From assembly GCA_029781115.1 (NCBI GenBank), contig JAKOXG010000018.1, positions 62,001-126,000 of the forward strand: a stretch of DNA of 64,000 nt, read 5' to 3'. Positions 8,394 through 48,662 of this stretch are shown one piece after another (the stretch's first letter is position 1; every line of letters starts with the position of its first letter). Source of the DNA: Candidatus Cloacimonadota bacterium. Its GTDB lineage: Bacteria; Cloacimonadota; Cloacimonadia; Cloacimonadales; Cloacimonadaceae. The translations under genes and the position numbers were made by a program. Below the pieces are notes generated by a model that worked only from the letters and a program-made list of their open reading frames with translations, had not been told where the DNA came from and searched no databases.

Positions 8394-8669
8394 AGTCGTC
8401 AGTCGTCAGTCGTCAGTAGTCAGTCGCTGCGCTGGATGCGATGGTTAGTGTACTTTTGGAGCAACCAGTATGGTTTTATGGCTTATGTAGCAAATTCCAT
8501 TTGCTTGCGGCGGTTCGGCGACCGCCGGCTACCTTCTTTGGGTCGCTTTGGCAAGCGACCATACAAGGATCCGTGGGAGAACAAAGAGCTCCAGGGCTAC
8601 CCGGATTGCCACCAAGAGCATGCGTACCCCGAAACCAGCGCAGCGACTGACTACTGACGACTGACGACT
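8394..8669. repeat. Inverted-repeat element bounded by heptamer arrays, with two hairpins
   Basis: The left end carries AGTCGTC-type heptamers running into CTGCGCTGG. The right end is the exact reverse complement: 8401-8435 and 8635-8669 are a perfect 35-bp inverted repeat. Inside are two strong palindromes: GGCGGT/ACCGCC around 8509-8526 and GGTCGCTT-TGGC-AAGCGACC at 8541-8560. No believable gene lies inside. The same boundary and hairpin types recur at 11.9-12.7, 21.7-22.2, 26.9-27.3 and 41.2 kb. Confidence 0.75.
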
Positions 8670-8695: not shown

Positions 8696-9079
8696 CTAAG
8701 ACAACTTGGGCTCAAACTTCTCCGGATTGTTCATCATGGATGTTAGCATTCTGCGAATCTCACTGTATTCGCCTATCAGGGTGTTGTACGTAGACTCATC
8801 AATGTATTTGAATCTGAGGCAAAAAGCTAACCAGACTTCTGTTTCCATTTGCTCGGATAATGCATCGCTGAGTTTGTTTATAAATACTTTGGGATAGATC
8901 TTTCTTCCCCAGGCTTCTGCAAGATTGGCGCATATAGACCTTGACGATCTTCGGATCTGGTCTGTCAGCGAATACAGCTCCTCTTTAGGAAATGATCTTG
9001 TGATTTCATAAATCTTGCATGCCAATTCAAACGATTTCTGGTATACGATTAAATCTCTAAAACTCTTTATTACTGCCAT
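8696..9079 (-). CDS. Four-helix-bundle protein (23S rRNA IVP/Avd-like), copy A
   Basis: A 127-residue small helical protein of the S23/intervening-sequence-protein family. The shared features are SFRDLIVYQKSFELACKIYE, the LYSLTDQIRRSSRSI helix and the NLAEAWGR loop, a variant of the usual NIAEGxGR. Family members were first seen inside 23S rRNA intervening sequences. Avd of diversity-generating retroelements is a relative, but most free-standing copies have no known function. The stop codon touches a GCGGCGAAGCCGC hairpin (8683-8695). Direct copies of an AGTCGTC array lie on both sides (8635-8669 and 9122-9159). It differs clearly from copies B and C, which sit in AGGTGTT arrays. Confidence 0.85.
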   Translation of the reverse strand: MAVIKSFRDLIVYQKSFELACKIYEITRSFPKEELYSLTDQIRRSSRSICANLAEAWGRKIYPKVFINKLSDALSEQMETEVWLAFCLRFKYIDESTYNTLIGEYSEIRRMLTSMMNNPEKFEPKLS

Positions 9080-9121: not shown

Positions 9122-9159
9122 CCAGCGCAGCGACTGACGACTGACTACTGACGACTGGA
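9122..9159. repeat. Heptamer array with CCAGCGCAG boundary, AGTCGTC type
   Basis: Four units (minus-strand sense AGTCGTC/AGTAGTC) joined to the CCAGCGCAG boundary, about 45 bp upstream of four-helix-bundle gene A. It is in the same orientation as the 8635-8669 array on the other side, so gene A is bracketed by direct repeats. Confidence 0.8.
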
Positions 9160-11856: not shown

Positions 11857-12717
11857 GCCGACTGCGTCGGACGGTTTTAGGTGTTAGGGCTGCGCTGGTT
11901 TCGAGGCTTTCTATTTTTTCCACGGATACACACGGATGTGCACGGATGGGGGCAGCTTCGCCGCAGGTGTTAGGGGTTAGGTGTTAGAGCTGCGCTGGTC
12001 TCGAGGATGAGAATGCTCTTGGTGGCAATCCGGATAGCTCTGGAGCTCTTTGTTTTTCCACGGATGCCTTGTATGGTCGCTTGCCAAAGCGACCCAAAGT
12101 AGGTAGCCGGCGGTTGCCATACCGCCGCCAGCAGGCGCCAGCCTGCTTTCTACCACAACCCCAAAACTAACCACATCTATACCAAAAACACGAGTAACTC
12201 CGAAGCCAGCGCAGCTACTCACAACTGCGGCGAAGCCGACACAGTCGGCCTGGAGAGCGAGGTCATGTGAGGTTGGTCGCTATGGCAAGCGACCATACAA
12301 GAGCAGGCGTATCTTTGGCTCCAGCGCAGCTCTAACACCTAAAACCTAACACCTAACACCTGGACGACGCAGTCGGCCCGGAGAGCGAGGCCATGTGAAG
12401 CAACGGCGGTTCAGCGACCGCCCGTACAAGAGCAGGCGCATCTTTGGCTCCGGCGCAGCTCTAACACCTAACACCTAAAACCTAACACCTAAAACCTGGC
12501 CGACGCAGTCGGCCCTCCTTCCTTACTGAGCCTCCCGGTGATTACCCGGAGCCTCCCGGGAAAAACCCGAGTATCTCCACGGCATCTCCGGGCGGGTGAG
12601 TAAGGGACAAGTGGATAGCGAGGTCATGTGAAGCAGCGGCGGTTCAGCGACCGCCCGTACAAGAGCAGGCGCATCCTCGAGACCAGCGCAGCGACTGACT
12701 ACTGACGACTGACGACT
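11857..12717. repeat. Intergenic repeat mosaic, heptamer arrays and hairpin modules
   Basis: Gene-free. AGGTGTT-type arrays on the plus strand (11873-11888 and 11966-11988) each end in CTGCGCTGG. The same type in reverse lies at 12332-12361 and 12461-12497, and an AGTCGTC-type array in reverse at 12692-12717. Between them are CACGGATG-type 9-mers (about 11930-11948), a GGTCGCTTGCCAAAGCGACC hairpin near 12076-12095, GGCGGTTCAGCGACCGCC hairpins, GGCCGAC/GTCGGCC palindromes, and one copy of the 88-bp element. The arrays face each other, so the whole block is roughly inverted about its centre. 11740-11856 carries the promoter above and nothing else I can identify. Confidence 0.75.
12520..12607 (+). 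repeat. 88-bp structured element, copy 1
   Basis: The outer stem is CCTTACT/AGTAAGG. Inside are a CTCCCGG-TGATTA-CCCGGAG hairpin with one mismatch, a GGG-AAAAA-CCC hairpin and a third GC-rich stem. Near-identical copies lie at 27169-27257 (reverse), 41448-41535 and 48528-48614. Confidence 0.75.
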
Positions 12718-21670: not shown

Positions 21671-22199
21671 GGTGTTAGGTGTTAGGGGTTAGGGGTTAGA
21701 GGCCGACTGCGTCGGCCAGGTGTTAGGTGTTAGGTGTTAGGGGTTAGGGCTGCGCTGGAGCCAAGGATGCGCGTGCTCTTGTACGGGCGGTCGCTGAACC
21801 GCCGCTGCGCCTTCGGTGAGGGGTTAGGAGCCGACTGCGTCGGCCAGGTGTTAGGGGTTAGGGGTTAGAGCTGCGCTGGAGCCAAAGATACGCCTGCTCT
21901 TGTACGGGCGGTCGCTGAACCGCTGCTGCGCCTTCGGTGAGGGGTTAGGAGCCGACTGCGTCGGCCAGGTGTTAGGGGTTAGAGGCCGACTGCGTCGGCC
22001 AGGTGTTAGGTGTTAGGGGTTAGGGGTTAGGGCTGCGCTGGAGCCAAGGATGCGCGTGCTCTTGTACGGGCGGTCGCTGAACCGCCGCTGCGCCTTCGGC
22101 CAGGTTTTAGGGGTTAGGGGTTAGGGCTGCGCTGGAGCTAAAGATGCGCCTGCTCTTGTACGGGCGGTCGCTGAACGCTGCTGCGCCTTCGGCCAGGTG
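21671..22199. repeat. Higher-order repeat: heptamers plus hairpin module, four copies
   Basis: Four copies of one composite unit. Each has 2-5 AGGTGTT/AGGGGTT heptamers, the CTGCGCTGG boundary, a GAGCCAAGGATGCGCGTGCT-like segment, TACGGGCGGTCGCTGAACCGCC (a hairpin), then GCTGCGCCTTCGG and often GGCCGACTGCGTCGGCC. The boundary starts near 21750, 21871, 22032 and 22127, so unit lengths vary from about 95 to 160 bp. The last unit runs straight into the stop codon of four-helix-bundle gene B. Confidence 0.8.
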
Positions 22200-22571
22200 T
22201 TAGGGGGAGGACGTTTTTAACCTGGTGCGCATGGTGCTAAGCATTCGGCCAATTTCGTCACACAGAGACAAGGGTGTCTTGGCATCTTGCTCACTGAGAA
22301 ATTTAAGCCGGATTGACAGTAGTAGTTGAGTTTCCAATTCGCTTAATGAACCTTGGGCAATAGAAAGAAAGCGCAAATACTCCTGCCTGGAATCCCTGCC
22401 TTTCCCTTCAGCAATGTTGGAAACTACAGATACTGCTGCTCTGCGCATCTGGTCTGTAAGTGAATACAGCGCAGCTTTGGGAAAACCCGCTGTTATCTGG
22501 TAAATCATCTCAGCAAGGGACATCCCCTTCTGCCACACCATCAAGTCTTTATAACTCTTAATCTTGTTCAT
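22200..22571 (-). CDS. Four-helix-bundle protein (23S rRNA IVP/Avd-like), copy B
   Basis: A 123-residue member of the same small helical family, with SYKDLMVWQKGMSLAEMIY, LYSLTDQMRRAAVSVVSNIAEGKGR and EYLRFLSIAQGSLSELETQL as the typical signature. I start it at the ATG at 22571, the same start as copy C; the eight extra codons of the longer frame would be read from heptamer repeats. The array begins 5 bp upstream (AGGGGTT, ATGAT, ATG) and may supply the ribosome binding site. The stop TAA is read from the GTGTTAGGGGG heptamer on the other side. It differs from copy C at only 5 of 123 residues, so the copies are recent. Confidence 0.88.
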   Translation of the reverse strand: MNKIKSYKDLMVWQKGMSLAEMIYQITAGFPKAALYSLTDQMRRAAVSVVSNIAEGKGRDSRQEYLRFLSIAQGSLSELETQLLLSIRLKFLSEQDAKTPLSLCDEIGRMLSTMRTRLKTSSP

Positions 22572-22576
22572 ATCAT

Positions 22577-22660
22577 AACCCCTAACCCCTAACACCTAAC
22601 ACCTAACACCTAACACCTAACACCTAACCCCTAACACCTAACACCTAACACCTAACACCT
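22577..22660. repeat. Heptamer array, 12 units, upstream of gene B
   Basis: Twelve uninterrupted units, AACCCCT or AACACCT on the plus strand (AGGGGTT/AGGTGTT on the minus). From low to high coordinate the order is two AACCCCT, five AACACCT, one AACCCCT, four AACACCT. It overlaps the last two codons and the stop of the metallo-hydrolase gene and ends 5 bp from the ATG of gene B. Confidence 0.9.
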
Positions 22661-23488
22661 AAACTCCCAATGCACATTATCGTGGTTCAGCAGCAGCTTG
22701 CCGCCTCTTTCCTTGATAGTCTGGTGGATATACTGTTTGGCTAAGTAAGTTTCTTTGCGGTTGACGTCGTAGGCAGAGGTGATAGCCAAAGGTAGATGGA
22801 AAGCGGTGGGGATAATATCGGCAGGATAGATGTAGAATCCGTCTTGGGCTTCGATCTCAACGATCTGGCTGCCCACGCTGTGTCCGCCCGTCTTTTTCAC
22901 TTTGACGCCCGGAGCGATTTCGGCATCTCCGTCCACCAGAGTGAGTTGCAGTTGTGAGTCGCAACCAGTATGGTCGCTTGCCACAGCGACCCCATCTCTC
23001 ACCTGCATCTTTTCTTCCAAAGGCTGCAATTGATTGGGATAATCATAAGCCGCCTGGTTCAAGCCATCGGGGTTTTTGGCCATTTCCCACTCTGCCTTTT
23101 GGCACCAGAGCCGGGCATTGGCAAAGGTGATTTTATCTTCACCTTCATGGGAGGTGATCAGCCCGCCCGCATGGTCAAAATGCAGGTGACTGAGGATGAC
23201 GTCCGTGACGTCCGATGCCTGATAACCCAGCGCCGCCAAAGACTTTTCCAAGATATATTCGGAAGGCTTGTAGATCTTGATTTGCTTTTCGCTGAGTCGG
23301 TTGCCGATGCCGGTATCCACCAGAATCACACGCCCGTGACCCACGATAAGGAGCAGGTCGAGGGCGAGTCTGATGCGGCGCCGCTCGTCCGTGGGCTCTT
23401 TTTTGCCCCAAAGAGCCCAAGGATTCACGCCCATCATGGCGCCGCCATCGGTGTAGTAATGGCCGGCGTCTACCTTGAAGATCTTCAT
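22652..23488 (-). CDS. Metallo-beta-lactamase-fold hydrolase with repeat-derived segment
   Basis: A 278-residue zinc hydrolase of the MBL fold, of the lactonase-like type, with the metal site HLHFDHAGG at about 100-108, a later His in TGGHSVGSQ and Asp in YPADIIPT. The substrate is unknown. Two oddities. The last two residues (Arg-Cys) and the stop codon are read from the heptamer array, so the native C terminus has been replaced or trimmed. Residues about 166-181 (VAVASDHTGCDSQLQ) are encoded by a copy of the intergenic hairpin/heptamer repeat inserted in frame (22944-22993). The gene begins directly after khpB ends and looks like the distal gene of the rpmH-yidC operon. Confidence 0.85.
   Translation of the reverse strand: MKIFKVDAGHYYTDGGAMMGVNPWALWGKKEPTDERRRIRLALDLLLIVGHGRVILVDTGIGNRLSEKQIKIYKPSEYILEKSLAALGYQASDVTDVILSHLHFDHAGGLITSHEGEDKITFANARLWCQKAEWEMAKNPDGLNQAAYDYPNQLQPLEEKMQVRDGVAVASDHTGCDSQLQLTLVDGDAEIAPGVKVKKTGGHSVGSQIVEIEAQDGFYIYPADIIPTAFHLPLAITSAYDVNRKETYLAKQYIHQTIKERGGKLLLNHDNVHWEFRC
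22944..22993. repeat. Intergenic repeat module inserted in frame within a gene
   Basis: The stretch holds GTTGTGAGTCGC (AGTTGTG-type heptamer end) and TATGGTCGCTTGCCACAGCGACC, nearly the same hairpin as the intergenic copies near 12072-12095 and 41258-41281. It lies inside the metallo-hydrolase coding sequence and keeps the frame open. Confidence 0.7.
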
Positions 23489-24325
23489 TTAGTCTTCAGT
23501 TCTTCTGCCGTGATCCCCCCTTTTGGGAGGGCGTCTGTTGGGATAGTATTTGGGTTTGCGGTAGCCGGATTTGTCCTTATCCTTCCTGGGGCTGTAGTCC
23601 TTTTTACCGGTAAACTGTTTATTTTGCGGGGCTGCCTTCCGGGGCGCTTTGCCGCTGAACTTTATCTTTTTGGTGCCGGTTTGATCCAGCACTTCCTGTT
23701 CAGAAAGCTTGGTGGGGAAAACGATGATGCGTTTTTTATCCCCATCACCCACGGTGAGGGTGCGCAGGCCTTTTTGCCGCTTTACATATTGATGGATGAC
23801 GCGGCGCTGCGAGGAGTGCATGGGATCCAGAGTGAGCGGTTTGCCACTTTCACGCGTCTCCTGGATGCGGGAGGTGAAGCGACGCAGGAAGTATTGATCC
23901 TTCTTTTCGCGGTAGCCTTCGCTATCCAGATAGATGATGCTGAGGCGGCGGTCGGAATCAAAGACACGGTTGATAAAGTATTGCAGCGTATCCAGCATGC
24001 TGCCGTTTTTGCCGATCAGGAAGCCGGGTTCGCTGACTCCGGCGATGTCCAGATACACGATTTTACCTTCGCGACGGGCGTCTATCTTTTCAAAGTTTAC
24101 GCCCATCTTTTGCAGCAGCAGCTGCAGGAACAATTTCACTCTGTTTTCCACTTCGGGCAGGTCAAAACTGACGACGGCGGTTTTGGAAGCGAAGAGGCCC
24201 AAAAAGCCTGCCCTTGGCTTTTTGACCACCTCATAGCTGAGCTCCCAATCCTGAACTTGGTATTCCTTGCGGAAAGCGGCAATCACAGCTTCCACGCTGG
24301 TTCCGCTTCTTTTTATCTTTGTCAT
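23489..24325 (-). CDS. khpB: KhpB/Jag-type RNA-binding protein (Jag_N, KH, R3H)
   Basis: A 278-residue protein with the Jag N-terminal domain (about 1-55), a KH domain with GFLIGKNGSMLDTLQ near 112-126, and an R3H-type segment with MHSSQRRVIHQYV. A long, very basic Lys/Arg-rich tail (about 220-278) follows that is not part of the usual fold. Relatives (EloR, KhpB, SpoIIIJ-associated protein) bind RNA and affect cell elongation and envelope growth. Its place directly after yidC is the conserved one. The stop lies right before the metallo-hydrolase ATG and the start overlaps the yidC stop by 4 bp. Confidence 0.92.
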   Translation of the reverse strand: MTKIKRSGTSVEAVIAAFRKEYQVQDWELSYEVVKKPRAGFLGLFASKTAVVSFDLPEVENRVKLFLQLLLQKMGVNFEKIDARREGKIVYLDIAGVSEPGFLIGKNGSMLDTLQYFINRVFDSDRRLSIIYLDSEGYREKKDQYFLRRFTSRIQETRESGKPLTLDPMHSSQRRVIHQYVKRQKGLRTLTVGDGDKKRIIVFPTKLSEQEVLDQTGTKKIKFSGKAPRKAAPQNKQFTGKKDYSPRKDKDKSGYRKPKYYPNRRPPKRGDHGRRTED

Positions 24326-25974
24326 TTAGTAATAGTTTCCTTGGTTTTAATCTTTTTTTGCAGGCGATATTGCTGGATGGCTGAGAAGATGCTATAGACG
24401 GTGTAATATAGCACCAAGCCGGAGGGTAAGCCCTTGAAGATAAAGAACATCATCACCGGCATGATATAGCCCATGAGTTTGGTTGTCTGTTGGGCTTGTT
24501 TCTGTTGTTCGGTCATCTTGCTCTCGTCCGGTGCAGCTGGCTTGACAAATCTGCTCTGCACTATCATCACCAAACCCATGAGGATGGGCAGGACGTAGTA
24601 TTTATCCGGCAGGGAGAGGTCTGTCCACCAGAGGATAAAGCTGGCATTGCGCATATCCAGCGTGTAGCGCAAGACGTTGTAGAGCGAGATCAGGATCGGC
24701 ATATTGATCAGCAGCGGAATCCACATGATGCAGCCGCCAAAGACGTTGATGCCGTGTTCCTGTTGCAATTTGACCATTTCCGCTCTTTGAGCGTTGATAT
24801 CGTTGGCATATTTCTTGCGGATGGCCTCCATCTTGGGTTGAATCTCCTGCATCTTGAGATTTGCTTCCATGCCCTTGCGGGTGAGCGGTTGTTGGATGGA
24901 GGTGAGGACAATCGAGAGAATGAGTGAAAAGACGATGATCACCAAGCCATAGTTGGGCAAATACTTGTGCAGAAATTTGAGGAAGCTGGCGATCAGATTG
25001 GCCAACCAGCGCAACCAGCCGGGCCCACGCTCGGCGATGAGCTGCATCTGTTGGTCATACTTGGCTAAAATGTCATAATCTGCGGGACCGGCATAGATGA
25101 GAAACTCCTGATCCCAAGCCACTTTGCCTACACTGCTCTTGGCAGAAAGCGTCATGGCGGGATTGCCGGTTTCCTGCTGGATATAACCGTTGATCTCGTT
25201 GATCAGGTTGGGCCCGCGCTCGGCCAAAGCGATGGTGAAATACTTGCTGCGCAGAGCAGCCCAGCCAAAGCTCTGAACTTCGCCGGAGACAGGCTTTTTC
25301 TTCAGCTTGGACAGAAGCAGCTTCTGGCTCTCGTTGTTGGCATAATAGACAAACTTATAATCCTGCGCCTTGTATTTGGTATAAGTCTCGCTATCGGCAA
25401 TGCCGGCATCAAAATCCAGTGCCAAGCCATGGATATTGCCCATGTTCTGGACGTTTACCTCACATTTTATCCCATAGCCATCATCCAGACGATAGCTGCG
25501 TCTGACGGCTGGCATGGCTTCGCTGCCAAGATAAAAGACCAGCTCCAGGGAGTCCATGCTCACGCTGTAGTTGAAATTGACATCTTTGAGATCGCTCTGG
25601 GTGGCGGGATGAAAGACGGTGAGATCCGCCACTTTTTTGCCTTTGGGGATGAGTGTTACGAGGGTATCTGCCTGCACCACGTGTTTTTTGAGCGTCACTT
25701 GCGTGATAGCACCACCCAGCGTGGAAAAATCCACCTTCATCAGCTCGTTTTCCAGGGTGATGATGGAAGTCTGTTGGGGCTCCACACCCAGGCTGTCTGC
25801 AGAGTAAAATGGCTGCATGGCACCATTTTCTGCAAGGGTATCCAGAGGTGCAGCTTGCGTGGCAAGCGAATCTGCCGCATCAGCGGCGGGGGGAGCGGGT
25901 TTCCAGATAAACTGATTGAACACAAAGTAGAGGGCAAACATCAATAAGATGGCGAGAAGGGTTCTTTTATCCAT
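24322..25974 (-). CDS. yidC: Membrane protein insertase YidC
   Basis: A 550-residue inner-membrane insertase of the long Gram-negative type. It has an N-terminal transmembrane helix (LLAILLMFALYFVFNQF, about 5-21), a large periplasmic beta domain (about 70-315), and five C-terminal transmembrane segments between about 340 and 535. These include the GCIMWIPLLINMPI and LMGYIMPVMMFFIFKGLPSGLVLYY regions, and the tail is basic. It acts with Sec or alone to fold and insert membrane proteins. Order rpmH-rnpA-yidD-yidC-khpB as in most bacteria. Confidence 0.97.
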   Translation of the reverse strand: MDKRTLLAILLMFALYFVFNQFIWKPAPPAADAADSLATQAAPLDTLAENGAMQPFYSADSLGVEPQQTSIITLENELMKVDFSTLGGAITQVTLKKHVVQADTLVTLIPKGKKVADLTVFHPATQSDLKDVNFNYSVSMDSLELVFYLGSEAMPAVRRSYRLDDGYGIKCEVNVQNMGNIHGLALDFDAGIADSETYTKYKAQDYKFVYYANNESQKLLLSKLKKKPVSGEVQSFGWAALRSKYFTIALAERGPNLINEINGYIQQETGNPAMTLSAKSSVGKVAWDQEFLIYAGPADYDILAKYDQQMQLIAERGPGWLRWLANLIASFLKFLHKYLPNYGLVIIVFSLILSIVLTSIQQPLTRKGMEANLKMQEIQPKMEAIRKKYANDINAQRAEMVKLQQEHGINVFGGCIMWIPLLINMPILISLYNVLRYTLDMRNASFILWWTDLSLPDKYYVLPILMGLVMIVQSRFVKPAAPDESKMTEQQKQAQQTTKLMGYIMPVMMFFIFKGLPSGLVLYYTVYSIFSAIQQYRLQKKIKTKETITK

Positions 25975-25991
25975 TACTTAAGCCTCGCAAA

Positions 25992-26279
25992 TTAGGGAAG
26001 GGGGTCGTAGCCACCGGGGTTGAAGGGATTGCAGCGCAAAACGCGGTAGATGCTCAAGCCAAGTGCCTTGAAAACATTGTATTTTTTAAAGGCCTGCAAA
26101 GCATAGCGGCTACAACTGGGCGTAAAGCGACAGGTGGGCACCATCAGGGGAGACAGTGCAAGCTGATAAAAGCGGATCAAGATGATAAATACCAGATTTG
26201 GCAGACGCAGGATCACTTTGAGGGGCGATCCTTTAAGCTTTGGATGATCTGATTGAGTTGATCGCAAAGTGAGGGCCAT
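25992..26279 (-). CDS. yidD: Membrane protein insertion efficiency factor YidD
   Basis: A small protein with the YidD signature LIRFYQLALSPL, CRFTPSCSRYALQAFKKYN and the C-terminal RCNPFNPGGYDPLP. It assists YidC-dependent insertion at the inner face of the membrane. The frame from the ATG at 26279 gives 95 residues and overlaps rnpA by 67 bp. Family members usually begin just before the ILxxLIRFYQ helix, so a start at the GTG near 26232 (VILRLPNLVFII) is possible and would cut the overlap to about 20 bp. Confidence 0.9.
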   Translation of the reverse strand: MALTLRSTQSDHPKLKGSPLKVILRLPNLVFIILIRFYQLALSPLMVPTCRFTPSCSRYALQAFKKYNVFKALGLSIYRVLRCNPFNPGGYDPLP

Positions 26280-26545
26280 GATAACTGTGCAGCTCCGACG
26301 CGGGCAATCAAATTGAGCTTAAAGCCATGCGGAAGCAGCTCATCCCGGCTGCGAATGAAGGCTTTGATCCGCCTTTTGAGCTTGTTGCGTTGATGGGCCT
26401 TGCCCACACTCTTGCCGATGGTGATGCCCAGGGAAAACTCCTCATCTGAGCGGGAAACTGCTGCCAAAAAGTGTTCAGACCGCAGGTAGAATTCACAAGG
26501 AAAAAGGCTCCTGTATTCATTGTGCCGCGTAATAAAACGCGCCAT
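26213..26545 (-). CDS. rnpA: Ribonuclease P protein component
   Basis: A 110-residue basic protein that binds the RNase P RNA for tRNA 5' end maturation. The hallmark RNR-like motif is GKAHQRNKLKRRIKAFIR (about 48-65), and SVGKAHQRN occupies the usual place. It starts 3 bp after the rpmH stop. It ends inside the yidD frame. Confidence 0.93.
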   Translation of the reverse strand: MARFITRHNEYRSLFPCEFYLRSEHFLAAVSRSDEEFSLGITIGKSVGKAHQRNKLKRRIKAFIRSRDELLPHGFKLNLIARVGAAQLSWPSLCDQLNQIIQSLKDRPSK

Positions 26546-26548
26546 AGC

Positions 26549-26683
26549 CTATGCGCTGAGCGTCTTTCTCCCTTTGGCACGACGACGCGCCAAAACTTTG
26601 CGACCATTGTGGGTGGACATGCGAAGGCGAAAGCCATGCGTGTTCTTCCTCGATCGGTTGGAAGGTTGATAAGTACGTTTCAT
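26549..26683 (-). CDS. rpmH: 50S ribosomal protein L34
   Basis: A 44-residue ribosomal protein. The start [19 protein letters not shown] and the end [12 protein letters not shown] are the standard L34 sequence. A possible AGGAG lies upstream at low spacing. No dnaA gene lies upstream in this window; instead there is repeat DNA and a four-helix-bundle gene. Confidence 0.97.
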
Positions 26684-26737
26684 TTTTGTAGTATACTCCT
26701 AAGTTTTATGTGAAAAAATCACAGATTAACCCATGAT

Positions 26738-26760
26738 TTTGAGGGGGGCTTGGATGTCAA
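26738..26760 (-). promoter_or_regulatory. Candidate promoter of the rpmH operon
   Basis: TTGACA (26760-26755) with an AATCAT -10 region 16 bp on (26738-26733 side), about 50-70 bp before the rpmH start. The spacing and the TCAAAATCAT string match the tilS promoter candidate. The long heptamer array begins 10 bp upstream of it. Confidence 0.4.
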
Positions 26761-26770
26761 GGGGAAAAAC

Positions 26771-26882
26771 AGGTGTTAGGTTTTAGGTGTTAGGTTTTAG
26801 GTGTTAGGTGTTAGGTGTTAGGGGTTAGGTGTTAGGTGTTAGGTGTTAGGGGTTAGGTGTTAGGTGTTAGGGGTTAGGTGTT
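26771..26882. repeat. Heptamer array, 16 perfect-length units
   Basis: The longest array: 16 head-to-tail 7-bp units. With T for AGGTGTT, F for AGGTTTT and G for AGGGGTT the order is T F T F T T T G T T T G T T G T. It ends in AGAGCTGCGCTGG, the fixed boundary, and starts 10 bp from the rpmH promoter candidate. Confidence 0.92.
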
Positions 26883-26912
26883 AGAGCTGCGCTGGTCTCG
26901 AGGGTGCGAATG

Positions 26913-27145
26913 CTCTGAGCAAAAGCGAGATCAGCTACAGAAAGGGTTTGTCCACGGATGATCACGGATGCACACGGATGGAGGGGCGGCTACGCAGGTG
27001 TAGGGTCGCTCGCTGGAGCGACCAGCGTACTCTGAGCAAAAGCGAGATCAGCTACAGAGAGGGTTTGTCCACGGATGATCACGGATGCACACGGATGGAG
27101 GGACGGCTACGCAGGTGTAGGGTCGGTCGCTGGAGCGACCAGCTT
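26913..27145. repeat. Direct duplication of a 118-bp module
   Basis: Two adjacent near-identical copies (26913-27030 and 27031-27145). Each contains TCTGAGCAAAAGCGAGATCA, a GTCCACGGATG/CACACGGATGG 9-mer region, CGGCTACGCAGGTGTAGGGT, and a GGTCGCT-GG-AGCGACC hairpin. Parts recur at 41.1, 41.6 and 47.2 kb with CACGAATT in place of CACGGATG. No coding potential is evident. Confidence 0.75.
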
Positions 27146-27168
27146 CACACGACCTCGCTATCCACTTG

Positions 27169-27257
27169 TCCCTTACTTACCCGCCCGGTGATGCCGTGGA
27201 GATACTCGGGTTTTTTACGGGAGGCTCCGGGTAATCACCGGGAGGCTCAGTAAGGAA
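27169..27257 (-). repeat. 88-bp structured element, copy 2 (reverse)
   Basis: The reverse-complement copy of the element at 12520-12607, with the same outer CCTTACT/AGTAAGG-like stem and the same internal stems. The A-rich loop is one base longer. Flanked by the GCGAGGTC and GGCCGACGCAGTCG modules. Confidence 0.72.
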
Positions 27258-27306
27258 GGAGGGCCGACGCAGTCGTCCAGGTGTTAGGGGCCGACGGGCG
27301 TCGGCC

Positions 27307-27339
27307 AGGTTTTAGGGGTTAGGTTTTAGGTTTTAGGGG
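27307..27339. repeat. Heptamer array forming the 3' end of gene C
   Basis: AGGTTTT, AGGGGTT, AGGTTTT, AGGTTTT, then AGGGGG. The TTA at 27333-27335 is the stop codon of four-helix-bundle gene C on the other strand. A GGCCGACGGGCGTCGGCC palindrome lies just to its left. Confidence 0.8.
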
Positions 27340-27704
27340 GAGGGTGTTTTTAACCTGGTACGCATGGTGCTTAGCATTCGGCCAATTTCGTCACACAGGG
27401 ACAAGGGAGCCTTGGCTTCTTGCTCACTGAGAAATCTAAGCCGGATTGATAGTAGTAGTTGAGTTTCCAATTCGCTTAGTGAACCTTGGGCAATAGAAAG
27501 AAAGCGCAAATACTCCTGCCTGGAATCCCTGCCTTTCCCTTCAGCAATGTTGGAAACTACAGATACTGCTGCTCTGCGCATCTGGTCTGTAAGTGAATAC
27601 AGCTCAGCTTTGGGAAAACCCGCTGTTATCTGGTAAATCATCTCAGCAAGGGACATCCCCTTCTGCCATACCATCAAGTCTTTATAACTCTTAATCTTGT
27701 TCAT
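27333..27704 (-). CDS. Four-helix-bundle protein (23S rRNA IVP/Avd-like), copy C
   Basis: A 123-residue protein, 118/123 identical to copy B 5 kb away, with the same NIAEGKGR loop and SLSELETQL helix. Start at MNKIKSYKDL; the array begins 7 bp upstream on the minus strand (AGGGGT, ATTATGAT, ATG), with AGGGG as a possible ribosome binding site. The stop codon is read from a heptamer. Copies B and C sit at either end of the rpmH-yidC operon block, each between heptamer arrays. Both their coding sequence and their flanks are conserved, which points to recent copying of gene and flanks together. Confidence 0.88.
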   Translation of the reverse strand: MNKIKSYKDLMVWQKGMSLAEMIYQITAGFPKAELYSLTDQMRRAAVSVVSNIAEGKGRDSRQEYLRFLSIAQGSLSELETQLLLSIRLRFLSEQEAKAPLSLCDEIGRMLSTMRTRLKTPSP

Positions 27705-27711
27705 ATCATAA

Positions 27712-27755
27712 TACCCCTAACCCCTAACCCCTAACACCTAACACCTAACACCTAA
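27712..27755. repeat. Heptamer array upstream of gene C
   Basis: About six units (three AACCCCT-type, three AACACCT), then a CCGACGCAGTCGG palindrome and the 3' end of the M6 protease gene 26 bp on. Confidence 0.85.
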
Positions 27756-27780
27756 CCGACGCAGTCGGCCTAAGAATACC

Positions 27781-32490: not shown

Positions 32491-32880
32491 AGTCGTCAGT
32501 CGTCAGTAGTCAGTAGTCAGTCGCTGACGCCTTCGGCGAGGTGTTAGGTTTTAGGTGTTAGGTGTTAGGTGTTAGGGGTTAGGGGTTAGGGGTTAGGGGC
32601 TGCGCTGGGGCCTTCGGCCAGGTGTTAGGTGTTAGGGGTTAGGGGTTAGAGCTGCGCTGGAGCCAAAGATGCGCGTGCTCCGAGCAAAAACGAGCGGAGA
32701 CTATTAAAGCAAAAGGCCAGCTTTTGCTGGCCCTTAATTCGTGTTAATTCGTGGGCAAAACCTTTCTATAGCAGGTCTCGCTTTTGCTCAAAGCATGCGT
32801 ATCTCCGAAACGTGCGTCAGCCCCTAACCCCTAACCCCTAACCCCTAACACCTAACACCTAACACCTCGCCAAAGGCGCT
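32491..32880. repeat. Repeat mosaic with two heptamer types and G-quadruplex motifs
   Basis: AGTCGTC/AGTAGTC heptamers (32491-32523) are followed 16 bp later by eight AGGTGTT-family units (32539-32594), then the CTGCGCTGG boundary. A second short array lies at 32620-32650. A reversed array at 32821-32866 runs almost into the M14 gene stop. GGGG tracts separated by TTA occur four in a row on the plus strand at 32575-32599 and on the minus strand at 32845-32821. A GGCCAGC-TTTT-GCTGGCC palindrome is near 32714-32731 and CGTGTTAATTCGTGG-type 9-mers are near 32740-32755. Gene-free. Confidence 0.8.
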
Positions 32881-41037: not shown

Positions 41038-41782
41038 AGTCGTCAGTCGCCAGTAGTCAGTAGTCAGTCGCTGCGCTGGTTTCAGAGATAAGCGTACTCT
41101 GAGCAAAAGCGAGATCAGTTACAAATAGGGTTTTCCCACGAATTACACGAATTACACGAATTTGGAGGGCATAAAGGGGCGGGTCACGCAGGGCTGGGCG
41201 TGCTTTTTATGAGAAGCGAGATCAAAGACAACAATACGAAAGTCCACGGATGCCTTGTATGGTCGCTTGCCAAAGCGACCCAAAGAAGGTAGCCGGCGGT
41301 TGCCATATCGCCGCCAGCTGGCGCAGCCTGCTTTCCAACACAACCCTACAACAATCCGCATTGCCTCCACTTTCACACCCATCTTTGCCTCTTGCGAAGC
41401 TCTCACAACTCACAACTCACAACTTGCCGGCGCAGTCGCCCCCCTCTTCCTTACTGAGCCTCTCGGTGATTACCCGGAGCCTCTCGGGAAAAACCCGAGT
41501 ATCTCCACGGCATCACCGGGCGGGTAAGTAAGGGACAAGTGGAGCTTGCAAGTCGTCAGTCGCTGCGCTGGTTTCAGAGATAAGCGTGCTCTGAGCAAAA
41601 GCGAGACCAGCTACAGAAAGGGATTTCCCACGAATTACACGAATTAAGGGGGCCAGCTTTTGCCGGCCCCCTTCCTTATATTCTACGGTCGTTTTTACTC
41701 AGAGCACACGCATCTCCGAGACGTGCGTCAGCCCCTAGAACCTAACACCTAACACCTAAAACCTGGCCGACCCCCGTCGGCC
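41038..41782. repeat. Repeat mosaic between the two C25 genes
   Basis: Heptamers of three kinds: AGTCGTC/AGTAGTC at 41038-41070 and about 41550-41567, CACAACT (AGTTGTG reversed) at 41402-41424, and AACACCT at 41732-41764. Hairpin GGTCGCTTGCCAAAGCGACC lies near 41262-41281. There are twin TCTGAGCAAAAGCGAGA-CACGAATTACACGAATT modules near 41097-41160 and 41589-41645, a GGCCGAC/GTCGGCC palindrome at 41766-41782, and the 88-bp element. The right end touches the stop codon of C25 paralog 2. Gene-free. Confidence 0.75.
41448..41535 (+). repeat. 88-bp structured element, copy 3
   Basis: Compared with copy 1 it changes CTCCCGGG to CTCTCGGG, which makes a clean CTCGGG-AAAAA-CCCGAG stem, and TCTCCGGG to TCACCGGG. 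Changes that keep or improve pairing suggest the RNA or single-strand form matters. Outer CCTTACT/AGTAAGG stem intact. Confidence 0.75.
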
Positions 41783-47118: not shown

Positions 47119-47440
47119 GCGCCGGCGCCGGCACCGGCGCCGGCGAGTTGTGAGTTGTGAGTTGTCAGTTGTGAGTCGCTGACGCTGGAGCCAAAGATAC
47201 GCGTGTTCCGAGCAAAAGCGAGATCAGCTACAGAAAGGGTTTTCCCACGAATTACACGAATTAAGGGATAATGGGGGTACAGCATTGGGCTGGGCGTGCT
47301 TTTTATGAGAAGTGAGACCAAAGACGACAATAAGAAAGTCCACGGATGCACACGAATTAACACGGATGGGCGGCGGTCGCCGAGCCGCCGCATGCAAACG
47401 CAGCTTGCTTCAAAACTGTCAACTGAAGCTTGTCTTCTCG
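47119..47440. repeat. Repeat mosaic upstream of the arsR-type gene
   Basis: It opens with a GC palindrome (GCGCCGGCGCCGG/CACCGGCGCCGGCG, 47119-47145), runs into AGTTGTG-type heptamers (47146-47178), then CTGACGCTGGAGCCAAAGAT. Next are the TCCGAGCAAAAGCGAGATCA module, CCCACGAATTACACGAATTA, a plain stretch, CACGGATG 9-mers near 47341-47370, and a GCGGCGGTCGCCGAGCCGCCGC-type hairpin near 47371-47393. Gene-free. Confidence 0.7.
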
Positions 47441-48466: not shown

Positions 48467-48527
48467 GGAGGGTTTAGGTTAACTCGCAGGCAAGGCGTTG
48501 CAGAAAACATGCCGTTTGCCCAGCTCT

Positions 48528-48614
48528 TCCTTGCTTAGCCTCCCGGTGATTACCCGGAGCCTCCCGGGAAAAACCCGAGTATCTCCACGGCATCTCCGGG
48601 CGGGTGAGTAAGGG
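48528..48614 (+). repeat. 88-bp structured element, copy 4 (solitary)
   Basis: It lies 61 bp past the sdpI-like stop. The left arm of the outer stem is changed (CCTTGCT with AGTAAGG keeps a G-U pair). This is the only copy with no heptamer array beside it, which helps define its ends. 48467-48527 shows nothing else. Confidence 0.72.
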
Positions 48615-48627
48615 CGAAGGGGGCGCC

Positions 48628-48662
48628 TGGGGATTGATGCGGGCTCCCAGGGTATTTTACTT
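48628..48662 (+). terminator. Terminator-like hairpin after arsR-sdpI
   Basis: CCTGGG, a 14-nt loop, CCCAGG, then TATTTTACTTTT on the plus strand. A likely end for the arsR-sdpI transcript. Confidence 0.5.

Follow-up and report, generated by a model that had tools for sequence, protein, structure and literature searches.

The subject of this study is a 64,000-nucleotide stretch of the genome of a Candidatus Cloacimonadota bacterium (contig JAKOXG010000018.1, positions 62,001 to 126,000; the window from here on), in which small genes of the PF05635 family lie between short tandem arrays (Table 1). The source genome (2.25 Mb, 22 contigs) contains exactly three PF05635 members, and all of them are inside the window. 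Copies 1 and 2 are on the minus strand, encode 123 amino acids each and differ at five residues. An initial annotation had correctly described these two genes; it had missed the third, which lies between ACGACTG arrays. It had also assigned the family, PF05635/TIGR02436 with a relation to Avd of diversity-generating retroelements, and this assignment stands. Copies 1 and 2 match PF05635 with E values of 2.5e-39 and 7.6e-40 and match TIGR02436 as well, with profile scores above the curated cut-offs (134 and 136 bits against 33.8; 126.5 and 127.9 against 24). The Avd family profile gives 41-42 bits against a cut-off of 80. To our knowledge, structures of the S23p/IVP family have been solved and its function has not been established.

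Gene and array are fused in copies 1 and 2, as the initial annotation held. The upstream arrays begin 4 bp (position 22576) and 8 bp (position 27713) past the start codons, AGGGG is found at the ribosome-binding position in both cases, and both stop codons (TAA) are supplied by a GTTAG heptamer. That both genes lie between 7-bp arrays is fully true of copy 1. For copy 2, the downstream array adjoining the gene (about 27309-27337) is short, irregular and under the standard detection threshold, and the long one is found at 26771-26884.

The association between gene and array extends far beyond the window. We assembled 247 distinct PF05635 genes from three sources: 61 relatives of the source genome, 80 loci taken from a scan of 84,980 species genomes, and 25 of the genomes scanned (one genome per species, many fragmented). 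Full flanks are available for 236 genes. Members outside the relatives were found by one conserved motif, and thus the sample favours one part of the family. Arrays were detected with a lag scan (+1 for a match, -2 for a mismatch, periods 5-12, score of at least 12). The thresholds were fixed before the shuffles but after the first loci had been seen. As a control we used 858 open reading frames (ORFs) out of the same loci. An array lies within 250 bp of 163 of the 236 PF05635 genes (69%) and of 104 of the 858 control ORFs (12%). Arrays on both sides are found for 79 of 236 (33%) and 7 of 858 (0.8%), respectively. For an array on at least one side, Fisher's P is 4e-32 among the relatives of the source genome and 1e-35 among the remaining genomes. 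In dinucleotide-shuffled flanks an array occurs in 0.2% of cases (none at a score of 14), which excludes chance. Arrays cover 18% of the first 100 bp; at distances of 300-3000 bp the figure is about 0.7%. Shorter intergenic space around the control genes is not the cause of the enrichment, since the correction for it (intergenic sequence only) leaves 54% of PF05635 flanks with an array against 11% of other intergenic intervals.

Both the enrichment and the presence of family members beside arrays elsewhere had been set as tests in the initial annotation, and both results favour its hypothesis. Besides the window's own relatives, array-bearing members belong, by record title, to Bacillota, Bacteroidota, Acidobacteriota, Planctomycetota, Verrucomicrobiota, Pseudomonadota, Fibrobacterota, Cyanobacteriota, Gemmatimonadota and one candidate-phyla-radiation genome. 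The unit is usually 7 bp long and sometimes 6, 8 or 9 (period 7 in 174 cases, 8 in 58, 9 in 6, 6 in 3 and 12 in 1).

The two arrays beside a gene form a pair. Among 82 genes with two-sided arrays, 78 have the same period on both sides, and these 78 pairs are mostly inverted (67 inverted, 10 direct, 1 tied). The arms are within one mismatch of each other in 59 of the 78 pairs, compared to a shuffled mean of 2.0 and a maximum of 6. On the coding strand the upstream unit is G-rich (106 versus 5) and the downstream unit is C-rich (95 versus 13). Because the arrays face each other in this way, the transcript would be a hairpin with the gene in its loop. Such a hairpin is indeed predicted for the RNA of copy 1 (21999-22680, z -6.2) and of a Nostoc example (z -7.0). 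The arrays lie at a median distance of 32 bp upstream and 18 bp downstream of the conserved core; the start codon is taken from the array in 22 of 127 genes and the stop codon in 23 of 126. We rejected the simple insertion of a gene into a pre-existing array, because the arrays would then be direct and not inverted. Array pairs in the source genome itself are convergent in 12 cases and divergent in 1.

Gene and arrays form one unit, which some orthologous sites carry and others lack, and the breakpoints coincide with the edges of the arrays or lie close to them. Such empty sites had been proposed as a test in the initial annotation, and they exist. The PF05635 gene is patchy among sister genomes. 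At the site of copy 3, relative G005 has the gene with ACGACTG arrays, and relative G002 has only a gene-less convergent pair of the unit TTAGTTG. G002 has its single family gene at another place, where inverted TTGTGAG arrays flank it. Around copies 1 and 2, homology to both relatives ends at 22665/22677 and at 26761, at most about 15 bp from the array edges at 22662 and 26771. A site downstream of a traM-like gene in Nostoc plasmids occurs in several states: a spacer of 50-53 bp in four plasmids, inverted arrays of three different units without a gene in three, and the gene between AGGGAAC/GTTCCCT arrays in two. The gene-bearing form is without about 45 bp of the short spacer. In Anabaena sp. 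90 (plasmid pANA02) a type I-D CRISPR-cas operon contains the element between cas6 and cas4, and both edges of the element carry arrays. A plasmid that is 99% identical over the matched parts has no element and about 245 bp of other sequence instead. The variable sites suggest a gain of the element, a direction best supported at the Nostoc site, because four plasmids have the short state in common. For Riemerella and for the first locus of Nostoc edaphicum no empty-site counterpart was found in PLSDB, and a phage collection gave no match.

Two observations on plasmids stand beside these sites. PF05635 has been reported from CRISPR neighbourhoods (PMC10053308), and the Anabaena element inside a CRISPR-cas operon may bear on that report. 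On plasmids 1 and 2 of Calothrix brevissima NIES-22, the gene comes after one for a phage-integrase-family protein and has 7-bp arrays on both sides. The stretch common to these plasmids is longer and includes the integrase, and hence does not define the ends of the element.

The repeat unit goes with the protein lineage and not with the host genome. Between genomes, the unit matches (at most one mismatch) in 0.9% of gene pairs with less than 35% protein identity, in 10% at 55-65%, in 38% at 65-80% and in 83% (5/6) at 80% or more. Gene pairs above 55% identity give 50 unit matches, compared to a permuted mean of 6 (maximum 18 in 2000 permutations). Different lineages in one genome share a unit in only 1 of 125 pairs, and on this ground we rejected host-wide slippage as the sole cause of the arrays.

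Copies of same-unit arrays, often as gene-less inverted pairs, are scattered across genomes that hold the matching lineage and are largely absent from genomes without it. Of the 61 relatives, 8 contain TTAGGNG triplets, and among these 8 are all five of the other genomes whose proteins are closest to copies 1 and 2. ACGACTG is confined to the two genomes that carry this version of copy 3, and one 8-bp unit is confined to three genomes of one genus. In Xanthomonadaceae, where the gene is flanked by CGGGATT/AATCCCG, the 12 genomes with the matching lineage have a median of 277 GGGANTN sites and the 32 that lack the family a median of 0 (Mann-Whitney P 8e-8). In the loci read, this gene lies between what we take, from the flanking sequence, to be accB and accC, two genes that are neighbours in E. 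coli.

The protein is under purifying selection. The ratio of nonsynonymous to synonymous substitution rates (dN/dS) is 0.08-0.17 in five comparisons, and 0.17 between copies 1 and 2. An AlphaFold model (pLDDT 95) resembles the solved structure 2GSC (TM score 0.90, root-mean-square deviation 0.8), which is a member of the Xanthomonadaceae lineage with GGGANTN arrays. It is also similar to 2RLD and, more remotely, to Avd, including Avd in the diversity-generating retroelement ribonucleoprotein. 2GSC and 2RLD have five chains each. The modelled protein is a four-helix bundle, and probably a pentameric one that forms a ring.

What kind of element is this? With moderate confidence we regard the units as small selfish elements whose protein acts in trans. 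Each consists of a gene encoding a pentameric four-helix bundle, preceded by a G-rich short tandem array and followed by the same array in inverted orientation. Because the dispersed arrays are lineage-specific, a role in trans is the simplest reading, and the protein presumably recognises the array and spreads it. By analogy with Avd, the ligand of the protein may be the hairpin or the G-rich strand of its own unit, in the form of RNA or single-stranded DNA. The protein would then help host replication or recombination, in trans, to copy gene-bearing and gene-less hairpins into intergenic sites. The overall logic would be that of REPINs and RAYTs, minus a recognisable transposase. S23p-bearing intervening sequences (IVS) of 23S rRNA might be a branch that settled in rRNA loops. 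The interpretation in the initial annotation, that the protein recognises the array and helps it spread, is thus partly supported.

Several results weigh against this reading. About 31% of PF05635 members have no array at the threshold used, and about 13% of array pairs are direct instead of inverted. No target-site duplication was seen at the two sites with element-lacking counterparts (Nostoc and Anabaena), and the insertions substitute for some target sequence. The profile matches reveal no nuclease, transposase, recombinase or other catalytic motif in the protein. Four genomes (G028, G089, G126 and G135) have arrays but no gene; in a partial comparison of gene-less genomes, four of five had 0-1 arrays in 48-80 kb and G028 had ten in 66 kb. 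Finally, linkage alone accounts for the joint inheritance of a gene and its flanking unit. It does not explain the dispersed arrays, which are thus the sole argument for a role in trans.

Alternatively, the hairpin could spread by host processes alone (replication slippage or template switching at G-rich repeats), with the gene as a passenger that gains from a mobile hairpin. The lack of an enzymatic motif, the many gene-less array pairs and the genomes with arrays but no gene would all fit. We nevertheless consider a passenger unlikely: the unit differs among lineages within a genome yet is common to one lineage across genomes, how many arrays a genome carries depends on whether the matching lineage is present, and a mere passenger need not span so many phyla or keep a low dN/dS.

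Still less probable is that the arrays serve a host gene as sites of cis-regulation or RNA processing, where the protein binds its own array and thereby controls its own mRNA and perhaps others. Arrays that abut start and stop codons and supply a ribosome-binding-like sequence, together with the strong hairpin predicted for the transcript, are what such regulation would look like, but whole units are missing at orthologous sites and the gene is patchy among sister genomes. A cis-regulatory role may exist alongside a selfish element that acts in trans. A retroelement served in trans by a reverse transcriptase, with an Avd-like protein whose fold is right and an RNA hairpin that would suit copying, is very improbable, as a reverse transcriptase is not consistently present: none is among the ORFs around copies 1 and 2 (the genome's only RVT_1 match is on another contig), and G012, G015, G017 and G041, which are about 99% complete and carry the family, have no RVT_1 match.

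The element is not wholly without precedent, since IVS and REPINs with their RAYTs each have major features in common with it. The 23S rRNA IVS of Coxiella (PMC4990558) and Leptospira encode a protein of the same family, and their terminal inverted repeats pair into a stem whose loop contains the ORF. Complementary ends around an S23p-family ORF are also found here, in the inverted arrays and the predicted folds. In contrast, IVS sit in rRNA genes, whereas none of our 226 loci matches E. coli 23S rRNA and the window has no Rfam match; we thus rejected a location in rRNA. Just upstream of its S23p ORF the Coxiella IVS has 3-4 tandem heptamers (GACAGAT), and its stem is 28 bp long; both features fit a common class with our arrays. 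PMC4990558 does not give heptamer arrays as a general feature of IVS and describes no dispersed gene-less copies.

The initial annotation had likened the system to RAYTs and REP sequences, and the comparison holds in its logic. In both, a gene lies beside its own repeat, inverted doublets form hairpins, gene-less copies are scattered and the repeat type is lineage-specific (PMC3116915); scattered inverted pairs specific to the gene's lineage are what we observe. However, RAYTs are Y1 transposases (PMC3116915), while our protein is an unrelated four-helix bundle that matches only PF05635, bAvd and Avd-type profiles and no Y1 (HUH) transposase. Its repeat is a tandem array and not a short palindrome. 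Avd shares the fold, the pentamer type and a detectable sequence similarity below family cut-offs, but copies 1 and 2 lack the neighbouring reverse transcriptase.

Cyanobacterial STRR heptamers (PMC2670836) and the heptanucleotide hairpins in P6b of the tRNA-Leu intron (PMC3488679) share with our arrays the 7-bp unit, the hairpins and the intergenic or RNA-loop sites, and gene-less inverted heptamer arrays are found in the Nostoc plasmids. Neither paper describes a protein partner. G-quadruplex heptamers of Xanthomonas (GGGAATC, with many convergent pairs) and Nostoc (GGGGA(T/C)T) have been reported (PMC4692102). Their unit type is that of the arrays that flank the Xanthomonadaceae gene, but they are described as G-quadruplex repeats only, and the main text makes no link to an S23 or four-helix-bundle gene. 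In the open-access literature we found no prior link between protein and arrays.

We know of no cause given for short heptamer repeats, which have been described repeatedly. The units of gene and array point to an unrecognised mobile-element class that ties together several long-unexplained bacterial repeats. Cyanobacterial heptamers, Xanthomonas GGGAATC repeats and S23p-bearing rRNA IVS look like one class. Tentatively, and with some doubt, we propose that this class is new and spans bacterial phyla, and that in it a non-enzymatic pentamer recognises the short tandem repeat that belongs to its lineage and spreads array hairpins with and without the gene; this would explain all three. Linking the S23p/IVP family to heptamer repeats gives both a testable role and makes repeat load a trait that is predictable from one gene. 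The link would also add a mobile-element strategy without a recognisable transposase and suggests an origin for rRNA IVS.

Table 1. PF05635 genes and associated arrays in the window (positions count from its first letter).
Feature	Position	Strand	Evidence
Copy 1, PF05635/TIGR02436 (S23p/IVP) four-helix-bundle gene, 123 aa	22200..22571	-	profile matches; dN/dS 0.17 versus copy 2
Copy 1 upstream array, 12 heptamers, TTAGGTG/TTAGGGG on the coding strand	22576..22662		
Copy 1 downstream inverted arrays (22001-22032, 22107-22125, 22191-22206) and intervening repeat sequence	22001..22206		
Copy 2, four-helix-bundle gene, 123 aa	27333..27704	-	profile matches
Copy 2 upstream array	27713..27757		
Copy 2 downstream array, short and irregular	27309..27337		direct sequence reading; relaxed unit scan
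Outer 16-copy array, inverted relative to 27713-27757	26771..26884		G005/G002 homology ends at 26761
Copy 3, the genome's third and last PF05635 gene (40% identity with copy 2)	8696..9079	-	
Copy 3 downstream array, unit ACGACTG	8646..8669		
Copy 3 upstream array, unit ACGACTG, oriented like the downstream one (an exception)	9131..9157		
Convergent TTAGGNG pair without a gene, 32539-32599 and 32620-32649 facing 32821-32867	32539..32867		

Between copies 1 and 2 lies a presumed rpmH-rnpA-yidD-yidC-jag operon with a metallo-hydrolase-like gene (names read off the translations). A palindromic intergenic repeat of about 100 bp (CTCGGTGATACTCGGGAAAAACCCGAGTATC...) occurs in the window at 12514-12614, 27162-27262, 41443-41542 and 48524-48631; it has no relation to the heptamers and is present in dozens of copies in G005. 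AACTCAC arrays at 41402-41424 and 47145-47176 have no matching gene in the source genome. Their unit is that of the arrays around the gene of G002, and hence they may be relics of a lost lineage. The gene-less convergent pairs (32491-32867 in the window; others on contigs C9, C10 and C1 of the source genome) contain nested inverted sequences of the gctgcgctggttt...aaaccagcgcagc type and also hold 9-bp CACGAATTA arrays, so that they resemble hairpins within hairpins.
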